A DNA stretch of 64,000 bases from Caldimonas thermodepolymerans (GTDB taxonomy: Bacteria; Pseudomonadota; Gammaproteobacteria; Burkholderiales; Burkholderiaceae_C). Of this stretch, positions 35,771 to 43,157 are shown in pieces. Position 1 is the first letter of the stretch, and each line of letters opens with the position of its first letter. The notes under the pieces are model-generated. The model was not told where the DNA came from. It was given only the letters and a program-made list of their open reading frames with translations, and ran no database searches. Where the stretch lies: positions 124,001 through 188,000 of the forward strand of contig NZ_CP064338.1 of NCBI RefSeq assembly GCF_015476235.1, given 5' to 3'. A program made the position numbers and the translations under genes.

Positions 35771-38482
35771 ATGACCAAGAGGAAGGGTGGCGTCTGGCGG
35801 GCCGACTGGTTCGTCGGCGTCTGGGTGGTGCTGGGCGTGCTCCTCCTGCATGCCGCGACCGACTTCATCGGCGGCATGGAGCGCCGCTACTACGACTTCG
35901 GCATGGCCGGCGCCTCGCGCACGCCGTCCGAGCGCATCGCGGTCATCGCGATCGACGACCAGAGCATCGCCAACATCGGCCGCTGGCCCTGGTCGCGCGA
36001 CGTGCACGCCCGGCTCATCGACAAGCTCGCGGCGGCCGGCGCCAAGACCATCGTCCACACCGCCTTCTTCTTCGAACCCCAGCAGGACCGCGGCCTGGGC
36101 TACATCCGCCGGCTGCGCGAGGTGCCCGGGGTGAGTGAGAACCCACAAGCGGCGCAGCTGCTGCAGGAAGCCGAGGCCGCACTCGACACCGACACCCGGC
36201 TGGCCGCCAGCATGAAGAACGCCGGCAACGTGCTGCTGGCGGCCGACCTGCGTCTGGGCGACCCGCTCGGCCGCCCCGACCGGCCCCTGCCCCCGTACGC
36301 GCAGGCCAGCACGCTGGACCCGGCCGGCGCCTTCCTCGTCACCGCGATCGAGACCCAGCAGCCCATCGCCCTGCTGGGCGCGGCCTCGGCCGGCATCGGC
36401 CACCTGCGCCAGCTGCAGGACCCGGACGGCGCGGTGCGCCGCGACGCGCTGCTGATCGACTACTACGGCCGCGCCGTGCCCTCGCTGCCGCTGCTGGCCG
36501 CCGCCAGCAGCCTGAACCTCGGCATCGGCGACGTGCGCGTGGGCTCCGGCGACGTGATCGAGCTCGGGCGCCTGAGGATCGTCACCGACGGCGCGGCGTT
36601 GATGCGTCCTCACTTCTACGCCAGCGACGGCCGGCCGGCGTTCCCGATCGATTCCTTCTTCGACGTCCTGAACGACAAGATCCCCGCCTCCAAGTACGCC
36701 GGCAAGATCGTGCTGATCGGCGCCACCGCGGCCGGCGTGGGCACCACGCTGCCGACGCCGGTGGCCGCGTCGATGACGCCGGTCGAGACGATGGCGCACA
36801 TCACCTCCAGCATCCTGTCCGAGCACTTCGTCACCTCGCCCGGCTGGGCGCAGGGCCTGTCGCTCGGTGCGGTGGTGCTGGTCGCGCTGTACCTGATCGT
36901 GCTGCTGCCGCGGCTGTCCGCCGGGGTCGGCGCCACCGCCACCGCGGTGGTGCTGCTGGTGCTGCTGGCCGGCGAGCTGCTGCTGCTCAACCGCCTGGCG
37001 GTGTGGGTGCAATTCGTGCTGCCGGCCGCGCTGCTGCTGATCGGCCACCTGCTGCTGACCACCAAGCGCTTCCTCGTCACCGAGGCCGGCAAGATCCGCT
37101 CCGACGAGGAATCGGCCGAGACCAACCGCATGCTCGGGCTGGCGCTGCAGGGCCAGGGCCAGCTGGACATGGCCTTCGACAAGTTCCGCCGCGTGCCGCT
37201 GTCGCCCGCGGTGATGGACAACCTCTACAACCTGGCGCTGGACTTCGAGCGCAAGCGCCAGTTCAACAAGGCGCTGGCCGTCTACGAGCACATGGCCGGC
37301 TACGACCGCACCTACAAGGACCTGGAAGCCAAGCTGGCGCGGGCCAGGAACCTGTCCGAGACCGTGATGCTGGGCGCCGGGGCCTCGTCGCCGGGCGGCA
37401 CCGTGCTGCTGGCCGACGGCCAGGTCGAGAAGCCCATGCTGGGCCGCTACCAGGTCGAGAAGGAGCTGGGCAAGGGCGCGATGGGCGTCGTCTACCTGGG
37501 CCGCGACCCCAAGATCGGCCGCATGGTCGCGATCAAGACCATGGCCCTGAGCCAGGAGTTCGAGGGCGCCGAGCTGGAGGACGCGCGCCAGCGCTTCTTC
37601 CGCGAGGCGGAGACCGCGGGGCGCCTGCAGCACCCGAACATCGTCACCATCTTCGATGCCGGCGAGGAACACGACCTGGCCTACATCGCGATGGAGTTCC
37701 TCAAGGGCCAGGACCTGGTGCCCTACACCCGCGCCGGCGCGCTGCTGCCGCCGGCCACGGTGCTGTCCATCATCGCCCGCGTCGCCGACGCGCTGGCCTA
37801 CGCCCATGCCCAGGGCGTGGTGCACCGCGACATCAAGCCGGCCAACATCATGTACGACCCGGCCAGCGACACCGTCAAGGTGACGGACTTCGGCATCGCG
37901 CGCATCACCGACTCGTCGCGCACCAAGACCGGCATGGTGCTCGGCACCCCCTCGTTCATGTCGCCCGAGCAGATCGCCGGGCGCAAGATCGACGGGCGCA
38001 GCGACCTCTATTCGCTGGGCGTGACGCTGTTCCAGCTGCTGACCGGCCAGCTGCCGTTCCGCGGCGAGTCGATGGCCGAGCTCATGTACAAGATCGCCAA
38101 CGAACCGGCGCCGGACATCCGCACGCTGCGCCCCGACCTGCCCGAGGCGCTGGCCGACATCGTCGCGCTGGCGGTCGAGAAGCGCGCCGAGGTCCGCTAC
38201 GCCGACGGCCGCCAGCTGGCCGAGGACCTGCGCAAGGTGGCCGAGAGCCTGCAGCAGGCCCAGCCGGGGCCGGCCGCGGCCGACGACGCCACCACCGTGC
38301 TGCCCCCCGGGGCGGGTCTCGCGGCGGTGGCGGGGGCGGCGCAGGCGGCCGGCGGCGCGCTGGAACCCACGCTGTGCCTGTCCCCCCGCGACCAAGGGGG
38401 CATGCCTTCTGTGGCCGGCGGCGATCCGCGGCACAATCCAGCCCACCCGGCCGCGGCTCCCGCTTCCAAGCCCCGCAACTAG
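35771..38482 (+). CDS. CHASE2-domain transmembrane Ser/Thr protein kinase
   Basis: A 903-residue membrane kinase. After an N-terminal span (about 13-31) comes an extracytoplasmic CHASE2 sensor (about 35-350; IAVIAIDDQSIANIGRWPWSRD). Three spans follow at about 358-435, then a short TPR-like helical linker (about 450-525), a Hanks-type kinase domain (about 557-820), and a 70-residue low-complexity tail. All kinase motifs are intact: GKGAMGVVYLG, the Lys in VAIKTM, HRDIKPANIM (about 683), DFGIAR (about 705), GTPSFMSPEQ and DLYSLG. Threonines in hydrophobic contexts flank the catalytic domain (531, 544, 841/842), possible autophosphorylation sites. A PP2C phosphatase and an FHA protein follow at once, forming a phosphosignalling unit. 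Confidence 0.95.
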   Translation: MTKRKGGVWRADWFVGVWVVLGVLLLHAATDFIGGMERRYYDFGMAGASRTPSERIAVIAIDDQSIANIGRWPWSRDVHARLIDKLAAAGAKTIVHTAFFFEPQQDRGLGYIRRLREVPGVSENPQAAQLLQEAEAALDTDTRLAASMKNAGNVLLAADLRLGDPLGRPDRPLPPYAQASTLDPAGAFLVTAIETQQPIALLGAASAGIGHLRQLQDPDGAVRRDALLIDYYGRAVPSLPLLAAASSLNLGIGDVRVGSGDVIELGRLRIVTDGAALMRPHFYASDGRPAFPIDSFFDVLNDKIPASKYAGKIVLIGATAAGVGTTLPTPVAASMTPVETMAHITSSILSEHFVTSPGWAQGLSLGAVVLVALYLIVLLPRLSAGVGATATAVVLLVLLAGELLLLNRLAVWVQFVLPAALLLIGHLLLTTKRFLVTEAGKIRSDEESAETNRMLGLALQGQGQLDMAFDKFRRVPLSPAVMDNLYNLALDFERKRQFNKALAVYEHMAGYDRTYKDLEAKLARARNLSETVMLGAGASSPGGTVLLADGQVEKPMLGRYQVEKELGKGAMGVVYLGRDPKIGRMVAIKTMALSQEFEGAELEDARQRFFREAETAGRLQHPNIVTIFDAGEEHDLAYIAMEFLKGQDLVPYTRAGALLPPATVLSIIARVADALAYAHAQGVVHRDIKPANIMYDPASDTVKVTDFGIARITDSSRTKTGMVLGTPSFMSPEQIAGRKIDGRSDLYSLGVTLFQLLTGQLPFRGESMAELMYKIANEPAPDIRTLRPDLPEALADIVALAVEKRAEVRYADGRQLAEDLRKVAESLQQAQPGPAAADDATTVLPPGAGLAAVAGAAQAAGGALEPTLCLSPRDQGGMPSVAGGDPRHNPAHPAAAPASKPRN

Positions 38483-38506
38483 GTGCCGGCTTTGCTTTCC
38501 GCTCCC

Positions 38507-42358: not shown

Positions 42359-42395
42359 ATCCGCCATACAGACTCAGAACACAAGCGCGCAGCAC

Positions 42396-43157
42396 ATGAA
42401 AGTCCGGGTGTTGGGCTGCTCCGGCGCCATCGCGGCGGGGTGCAAGACCACCTCATTCCTGCTCGATGACGACCTGCTCGTCGACGCCGGCACCGGCGTC
42501 GGCGACCTGACCCTCGACGAGCTGGCCCGCATCAACCACATCCTCATCACGCACTCGCACCTGGACCACATCGTCTCGATCCCGCTGCTGGTCGACAGCG
42601 TGATGAACCGGCGCACTCGGCCCATCGTGGTCCATGCGCTGCCCGAGACGCTCGAGGCGCTGCGCGCACACATCCTCAACTGGGTGATCTGGCCCGACTT
42701 CACGCAGCTGCCCTCGCGCGAGCGCCCGGTGCTGAAGATGGAGCCGCTGGCCGCCGGCCAGGTCCTGGACCTGGACGGCAAGCGCATCGAGGTGCTGCCG
42801 GCCGAGCACACCGTGCCGGCGGTGGGCTATGCGGTCGAGGGCCGCACCGGCTGGTGGGCCTACACCGGCGACACCGGCCCCAACCCCGCGCTGTGGCCGC
42901 TGCTGGCACGCCGGCGCGTCGCGATGCTGGTGATCGAGACCGCCTTCGGCGACGACGAGCGCGAGCTGGCCGCGGCGAGCAAGCATCTGTCGCCCAGCAC
43001 GCTGGCGCAGGAGCTGCGCAGCCTGGCGCGCGACGTGCCGGTGTTCGTCACCCACGCCAAGCCCGGCGGCATGGGCGCCATCGTGACCCAGGTGCATGCG
43101 CTCGATTCCGGTCATCGCATCGAGCACCTCGAGGCGGGCCAGGTGTTCGTGATCTGA
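42396..43157 (+). CDS. Metallo-beta-lactamase-fold protein like class II 3',5'-cyclic nucleotide phosphodiesterases
   Basis: A 253-residue protein of the metallo-beta-lactamase fold. [23 protein letters not shown] opens the chain, followed by the metal motif [17 protein letters not shown], which nearly fits the class II cAMP phosphodiesterase signature, then [18 protein letters not shown] and FVTHAKPG. It begins 37 bases after the cyclase stop, which strengthens the idea that it hydrolyses the cyclic nucleotide made by its neighbour. No signal peptide is present, so it acts in the cytoplasm. A generic hydrolase role is the alternative. The frame is open upstream, but the ATG at 42396 starts the fold directly. 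Confidence 0.88.

Follow-up and report, generated by a model that had tools for sequence, protein, structure and literature searches.

The five-gene locus

The window, by which we mean the whole 64,000-nucleotide stretch of the Caldimonas thermodepolymerans genome analysed here (contig NZ_CP064338.1, positions 124,001 to 188,000), carries a run of five same-strand genes in which a membrane Ser/Thr kinase, a phosphatase and a phosphothreonine reader lie beside a nucleotidyl cyclase homolog and a candidate cyclic nucleotide phosphodiesterase. All five genes named in a preliminary description of this DNA are present, between 35771 and 43157, and their families were confirmed by Pfam and NCBIfam. 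The intergenic gaps along the run are 24, 32, 106 and 37 bases in gene order, and promoter and terminator scans of it gave no signal exceeding that of shuffled sequences. The features are listed below in window coordinates (aa, amino acids).

35771..38482, + strand: CHASE2 membrane Ser/Thr kinase, 903 aa (Pfam, ortholog alignment)
38507..39292, + strand: PP2C phosphatase of the Stp1/IreP family, 261 aa (NCBIfam NF033484, invariant metal motifs)
39325..40002, + strand: FHA protein, 225 aa (Pfam FHA, conserved binding residues)
40109..42358, + strand: CHASE2 class III nucleotidyl cyclase homolog, 749 aa, with GTG start and C-terminal helical tail (Pfam, residue comparison, PDB relatives)
41972..41974, + strand: Thr codon (ACG) of the cyclase homolog, in the place of the transition-state Asn (sequence, ortholog comparison)
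42396..43157, + strand: metallo-beta-lactamase-fold hydrolase of the class II cyclic nucleotide phosphodiesterase type, 253 aa (PDEase_II, 4ojv match)

Residues were compared in alignments from which rows of odd length had been dropped, leaving 136/137 kinases, 133/135 PP2C phosphatases, 105/132 FHA proteins, 123/133 cyclases and 118/119 hydrolases, among which three duplicate loci may still be included. The kinase has a CHASE2 domain (residues 23-373), membrane segments, a TPR-like linker strongly conserved among 13 aligned orthologs and a PknB-like kinase domain from about residue 560, with Pfam scores of 175 bits for CHASE2 and 182 bits for Pkinase. The catalytic and activation-loop residues of Hanks-type kinases have assigned roles, and the catalytic set expected of this type (Gly loop, Lys, Glu, HRD and DFG) is complete in the window kinase and in 136/136 aligned orthologs, in agreement with its proposed part as writer of phosphorylation. 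Thr718 and Thr720 of the activation loop are likewise invariant (136/136), and the juxtamembrane Thr531 is Thr in 128/136.

The proposed eraser and reader also stand. The phosphatase passes the NCBIfam Stp1/IreP cut-off (NF033484, 248.5 bits against 230; Pfam PP2C_2, 62 bits) and its metal-binding motifs DG, GD, SDG and DN are invariant in all 133 aligned sequences. The third protein consists of an N-terminal FHA domain (Pfam, 80 bits), a linker and a conserved C-terminal half of no recognised fold. The Arg, Ser, His and Asn of the FHA binding loop have established roles in phosphothreonine binding, and each is retained in 105/105 aligned proteins. Thr103 in the linker (EKTM, counted from the ATG) is Thr in 102/105, and in 40/40 of a second set. 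Against the type VI secretion family TagH (TIGR03354) the protein scores 36.9 bits, well short of the 120.25 cut-off, which places it outside that pathway. At one related locus, L100, PP2C copies flank the kinase on both sides and the FHA gene lies upstream.

Loss of a cyclase active-site residue in the genus

The cyclase homolog scores 210 bits for CHASE2 and 41 bits for Guanylate_cyc in Pfam, and together with the kinase it accounts for every CHASE2 match at E 0.001 in the genome (3.86 megabases, one contig). The two sensors had been taken to be of the same kind; this holds at family level and fails for any closer likeness, the domains being just 28-30% identical. Class III cyclases employ two metal-binding Asp residues, a Lys and a Thr or Asp for substrate, and an Asn and an Arg at the transition state. 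The window protein keeps both Asp, the Lys, the Thr and the Arg, and has Thr in place of the Asn; it is accordingly treated here as a homolog of the class. The Asn is lost in 5/5 copies from the window's genus (Thr in the window; Thr, Gln, Thr and Glu in the others) and present in 117/117 copies longer than 700 aa from outside it, 114 of them distinct; in a separate set of rows it is found in 118/123 cyclases, the five exceptions again being those of the genus. One genus copy, L053, is also without the substrate Lys. An active maker of cyclic nucleotide, as originally proposed for the window, is therefore not upheld: the residue that has gone here is kept in every non-genus copy of that length.

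Codon comparisons agree with the residues. The ratio of nonsynonymous to synonymous substitution rates (dN/dS) in the catalytic domain is 0.30-0.61 in four pairs involving the window and 0.03-0.17 in six pairs from outside the genus, a seventh outside pair being saturated and two genus pairs not read. Similarity is higher in the catalytic domain than in the sensor in 7/7 outside pairs and in none of the four window pairs, and between the window and L181 the cyclase homolog is 76% identical, compared with 87-93% for the other four proteins. By these measures constraint on the cyclase homolog is relaxed in the window's genus, its catalytic domain standing at the level of the sensor.

A different change is seen in a cut-down form of the Hydrogenophaga type, in which the catalytic domain is gone as a block while CHASE2, the membrane segments and the tail remain in an open frame (L108, L115 and L133 by alignment, L112 and L113 by length and score). 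In five pairs of L108, L112, L115 and L133 the remnant has a dN/dS of 0.19-0.25, below neutral, compared with 0.09-0.12 for the kinase. On this evidence the CHASE2 part and tail of the cut-down form are under selection.

The window's genome holds two further class III cyclase matches, both of which by eye keep Asn and Arg. One (G000:C1:2297242, L220) appears, also by eye, to carry a C-terminal FHA-like part, possibly another link between phosphothreonine and cyclic nucleotides; in the other the place of the substrate Lys is taken by Asn.

The metallohydrolase

The last protein of the run fits the class II cyclic nucleotide phosphodiesterases (PDE1 type) in metal motif, profile and nearest solved relative. 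It matches PDEase_II at 46.5 bits (cut-off 23.7), though the match spans just positions 82-177 of the 340 in the profile, and the same family matches 42/42 members of the hydrolase group. The best PDB sequence match, by single sequence and profile alike, is yeast PDE1 (4ojv), the IWPD segment included. HxHxDH is found in 118/118 aligned hydrolases, the Leu of HxHLDH in 117 and WPDF in 118/118. The retained profile and motifs thus favour a cyclic nucleotide breaker, as predicted. That the protein is instead an RNase Z-like or other hydrolase with no cyclic nucleotide phosphodiesterase role is very improbable, given the family-wide PDEase_II matches, the yeast PDE1 relationship and the invariant WPDF; RNase Z itself is disfavoured by an NCBIfam score of 62.9 bits against a cut-off of 292.95.

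Conservation of the gene set

Absence of the set from related genomes had been named as part of what would refute the preliminary description, and on that point the neighbourhood check does not refute it. In a draw of 200 genomes from the order, the CHASE2-linker part of the kinase matched 96, about 67 of which, beyond the window's own, were kinases (hand count); 52 of these kinase regions were fetched and 15 left unfetched. The kinase, PP2C and FHA genes are kept together in 46/52 and the kinase is alone in 4/52. All five genes occur in the window's order and strand in 37/52 regions, representing 20/23 family codes (copied by hand), although L133, counted among the 37, holds just a cyclase remnant. 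In 18 kinase-less CHASE2-linker regions, also fetched, a CHASE2 cyclase homolog is present without exception. The 80 named loci were the nearest ones on a longer list, which biases them toward close kin; the full five are present in 53 of the 63 that are long enough, three of them (L108, L112 and L115) with a cyclase remnant. A query with the kinase matched 28/40 genomes at E 1e-40, and 16/40 also across the CHASE2 part (own genome included; hand count).

Wider draws, made with the CHASE2-linker model at E 1e-60 and overlapping in a few genomes, gave matches in 59/321 genomes of the class and 78/349 of the phylum. The 26 class regions contain kinase in 26, PP2C in 22, FHA in 21, a nearby cyclase in 12, and HD-GYP and hydrolase genes in 3 each. 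In these regions, which belong to other orders, the triad and the cyclase adjoin in 12/26, with the cyclase on the opposite strand in 8/12; that they stay neighbours despite inversion of the cyclase argues that more than transcription as one unit links them in function. The 14 phylum regions contain kinase in 13, PP2C in 7 and FHA in 5, with no separate cyclase listed, the lone cyclase-model match probably overlapping the kinase's own CHASE2. From this distribution the kinase-PP2C-FHA triad looks the oldest part, the cyclase having seemingly joined within the class.

Some loci depart from the pattern. L187 and L188 (genomes G015 and G021, which belong to the same family as the window) have a kinase lacking the CHASE2 part, 347 aa long in L187, and no cyclase there. 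At L158, L169, L172 and L173 a CHASE2 kinase lies alone upstream of sucCD, without PP2C or FHA. L126 and L127, metagenome-assembled genome records titled Bordetella parapertussis, group with environmental Burkholderiales loci, and their titles are probably wrong. No plasmid relatives of the kinase were found at E 1e-120. A second kinase near a PilB-type ATPase in the window's genome (C1:2710000-2729900) was considered as a relocated unit and set aside, the intervening genes looking unrelated; the aligned part of that ATPase begins beyond the GAF region.

A longer unit with a pilus-type ATPase

Clustering of genes over 159 loci, the window included, shows that the run is often followed by a GAF-MshEN-T2SSE ATPase of about 796 aa (94 loci), a type IV pilin of the main cluster (55), a GAF-HD-GYP protein (45) and a cyclic-nucleotide-binding plus rhodanese protein (13). 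Among the 52 drawn regions, 36 have this PilB-like ATPase, 38 the HD-GYP protein, 8 the cyclic-nucleotide-binding protein and 22 a prepilin motif downstream on the same strand. These counts strengthen the earlier guess that pili or surface behaviour may be the output. The fused ATPase is exemplified by L186:4280-6670, and in the literature searched, as far as its text was available, we found no description of a GAF-fused pilus ATPase.

Loci in the window's genus lack the ATPase and HD-GYP genes, and pilA follows directly. The GAF-fused ATPase was not found among the best matches elsewhere in five genus genomes (the window's own, G001, G002, G003 and G006). That it was merely relocated is disfavoured, as the best matches reach 40-48% and start beyond the GAF domain, compared with 58, 76 and 100% for three positive controls. 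Across the 112 loci that could be read, the ATPase adjoins 85/91 intact cyclases versus 4/21 non-intact ones (Fisher test, 9e-12, kinship ignored). This count omitted rows cut by contig ends or of unreadable state, together with L099, L109, L124 and L130 as duplicates; on recheck L109 is no duplicate, its contig ending just behind the metallohydrolase so that the ATPase state is unreadable. L113 and L115 are 97-99% alike, and L134 was scored as having an intact cyclase and no ATPase even though its contig stops shortly after the following two genes.

The genes flanking the run in the window are these.

34918..35637, + strand: TerC/YjbE-type membrane protein, upstream neighbour, judged outside the system (Pfam, NCBIfam)
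43321..43764, + strand: type IV pilin gene pilA, next downstream of the five-gene run, probable output context (Pfam Pilin and N_methyl)

The TerC gene ends 133 bases before the kinase, and pilA starts 163 bases after the metallohydrolase. Membership of TerC in the system is disfavoured: it lies upstream on the same strand in just 9/52 drawn regions, and is better regarded as local context. Further downstream of pilA are a PglL-type protein glycosylation ligase (PF15864, 48132-49847) and, at 47236-48033, a frame of 265 aa with a serine beta-lactamase-family match (PF00144, positions 46-161 of 329), possibly a truncated gene.

A model for the locus

The observed gene set, its order and conservation, the residues and the losses lead us to propose a signal, substrates, activities and output as follows. 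The locus probably encodes a conserved switch of kinase, phosphatase and FHA protein together with a CHASE2 partner. In its ancestral form the switch would have been linked to cyclic AMP (cAMP) and to control of a pilus ATPase; in the window's genus the cyclase arm is probably in decay. The CHASE2 kinase would sense an extracytoplasmic cue across the membrane, autophosphorylate and phosphorylate partners including the FHA protein, with Thr103 of the FHA linker and the juxtamembrane Thr531 of the kinase as likely acceptors. The FHA domain would read phosphothreonine, through self- or partner binding at Thr103, and the PP2C phosphatase would reset the switch. The second CHASE2 receptor would originally have been an adenylate cyclase, paired with the class II phosphodiesterase in the same unit; in relatives it may still make cAMP, which the phosphodiesterase would limit, and the pilus-type ATPase would likely be the point at which cAMP, phosphothreonine and possibly cyclic di-GMP (c-di-GMP) act as inputs. 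In most drawn relatives a PilB-like GAF-MshEN ATPase and a GAF-HD-GYP protein adjoin both arms, at times joined by a cyclic-nucleotide-binding protein, so the output is probably type IV pilus-like assembly. With ATPase and HD-GYP missing at the locus and the Asn lost, the kinase-phosphatase-FHA arm would be the working core in this genus, the kinase most likely being the receptor of consequence, and the window cyclase homolog is probably a weak or non-enzymatic receptor.

Several observations weigh against this model of a switch with a decaying cyclase arm. The Asn-to-Thr change could lower activity instead of abolishing it. The sensor dN/dS in window pairs is also raised (0.32-0.47), one outside pair reaches 0.17 in the catalytic domain, and dS is lower in genus than in outside pairs, making the ratios less comparable. 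The hydrolase is kept in 11 of the 14 loci scored cyclase-absent, so that its substrate may come from elsewhere and it is not tied to the cyclase homolog alone. No ATPase was found in the 40 regions outside the order (26 class, 14 phylum). The covariation of cyclase and ATPase is suggestive, the pattern having been noticed in the data before it was tested: six loci have an intact cyclase and no ATPase seen, four an ATPase without an intact cyclase, and a test on the kinase tree, with 10 independent pairs, commonly gave 5:0 and a median p of 0.06. A stricter first coverage rule had given 84/87 versus 4/19 and a tree median p of 0.03, and omitted the contrary loci L105 and L116.

The original view of the locus, that all five enzymes are active here and that two sensors acting in parallel jointly govern protein phosphorylation and the turnover of a cyclic nucleotide, gains from the conserved gene set, the open frame and the intact remaining cyclase residues (two Asp, Lys, Thr and Arg). 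We nevertheless think it unlikely, as the Asn is missing from 5/5 genus copies and from 0/117 others, catalytic constraint has relaxed to sensor level, and related lineages do without the catalytic domain or, at L187 and L188, without the gene at the locus. Nor do we give much credence to two independent modules, kinase-PP2C-FHA and cyclase-phosphodiesterase, sharing one operon with no cross-talk. Each half does occur by itself: of the 18 kinase-less regions fetched, nine (L193, L195, L196, L199, L203, L205, L206, L208 and L210) hold both cyclase homolog and metallohydrolase, and the triad lacks the cyclase in 8/26 class regions (hand count) and several regions of the order. Yet the halves adjoin with the cyclase on the opposite strand in eight regions of other orders, where shared transcription alone is an insufficient explanation.

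A more serious alternative, though still the less probable one, is that the output is other than pili, the adjacency of pilA and the ATPase being due to chance or serving secretion. Just pilA follows in the window, the ATPase family also includes type II secretion ATPases, no such ATPase was seen in the 26 class and 14 phylum regions outside the order, and 30/52 drawn regions lack a downstream prepilin in the stretch fetched. Set against these, in many families pilin genes are again found downstream, at varied distances, and the PglL-type glycosylation ligase follows in the window.

We also put forward, tentatively and as possible rather than probable, that the second CHASE2 protein is a receptor subunit in a mixed complex with the CHASE2 kinase, its cyclase domain being an optional output that has been switched off in the genus or dropped as a block in the Hydrogenophaga type, with sensor and C-terminal tail retained. 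The window protein would then be a pseudo-cyclase acting on the kinase, derived from an ancestral unit that joined phosphothreonine, cyclic nucleotide and possibly c-di-GMP on one pilus ATPase.

Relation to known systems

CHASE2 receptors are common and few of their cues are known. Two such receptors of different output, accompanied by a phosphatase, a reader and a phosphodiesterase, make a defined place to study how Ser/Thr phosphorylation meets cyclic nucleotides, and lineages with an altered, shortened or missing cyclase offer natural experiments that separate sensor from enzyme. The threonine phosphorylation pathway of type VI secretion combines a membrane kinase with a PP2C phosphatase and an FHA protein, all three encoded at one locus. 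The window shares this trio and differs in the CHASE2 sensor and in an FHA protein far below the TagH cut-off, and there are no type VI genes among the annotated neighbours of the run.

The papers cited below were considered as far as their text was available, and what is said to be lacking from them is limited to that text. A threonine phosphorylation pathway is described for type VI secretion (PMC5995506). The factors recognised by CHASE2 were stated to be unknown in 2016 (PMC5192318). In cyanobacteria CHASE2 is joined to a Ser/Thr kinase domain; these kinases are listed as single proteins, and no cyclase/phosphodiesterase cluster is mentioned (PMC2176072). In Sinorhizobium meliloti CyaD1, CyaD2 and CyaK are CHASE2 membrane cyclases of a sensory cAMP pathway, in which a plant protein exerts its effect by way of a partner in the outer membrane; the output is the CRP-family Clr and no kinase module is mentioned (PMC13001267). 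In Campylobacterota a CHASE2 adenylate cyclase is clustered with a phosphodiesterase, FecR and TPR genes, and the cyclase adjoins the cAMP phosphodiesterase much as in the window; kinase, PP2C and FHA are not described there (PMC9239204). The window has the cyclase homolog and phosphodiesterase of that cluster, with no FecR or TPR gene seen beside the run. TPR/SlipAM-type genes do lie beside the CHASE2 cyclase in L134, L150, L194, L198 and L199, with FecR-type genes also in L134, L150, L194 and L199, and all four gene types of the Campylobacterota cluster occur together in L134, L150 and L199.

The proposed ancestral unit also resembles the control of PilB-type extension ATPases, where MshEN domains of such ATPases bind c-di-GMP and cAMP controls pilus genes; both cAMP and MshEN there bear on the extension or the expression of type IV pili (PMC11656802). 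The Pseudomonas pathway employs Pil-Chp, CyaB and Vfr (PMC11656802), whereas the window has a CHASE2 cyclase homolog with a Ser/Thr kinase module. The literature searched, whose scope left out most subscription papers, yielded no account of the five genes as one set, in keeping with the earlier statement that no described system has exactly this set, and each half has precedents.

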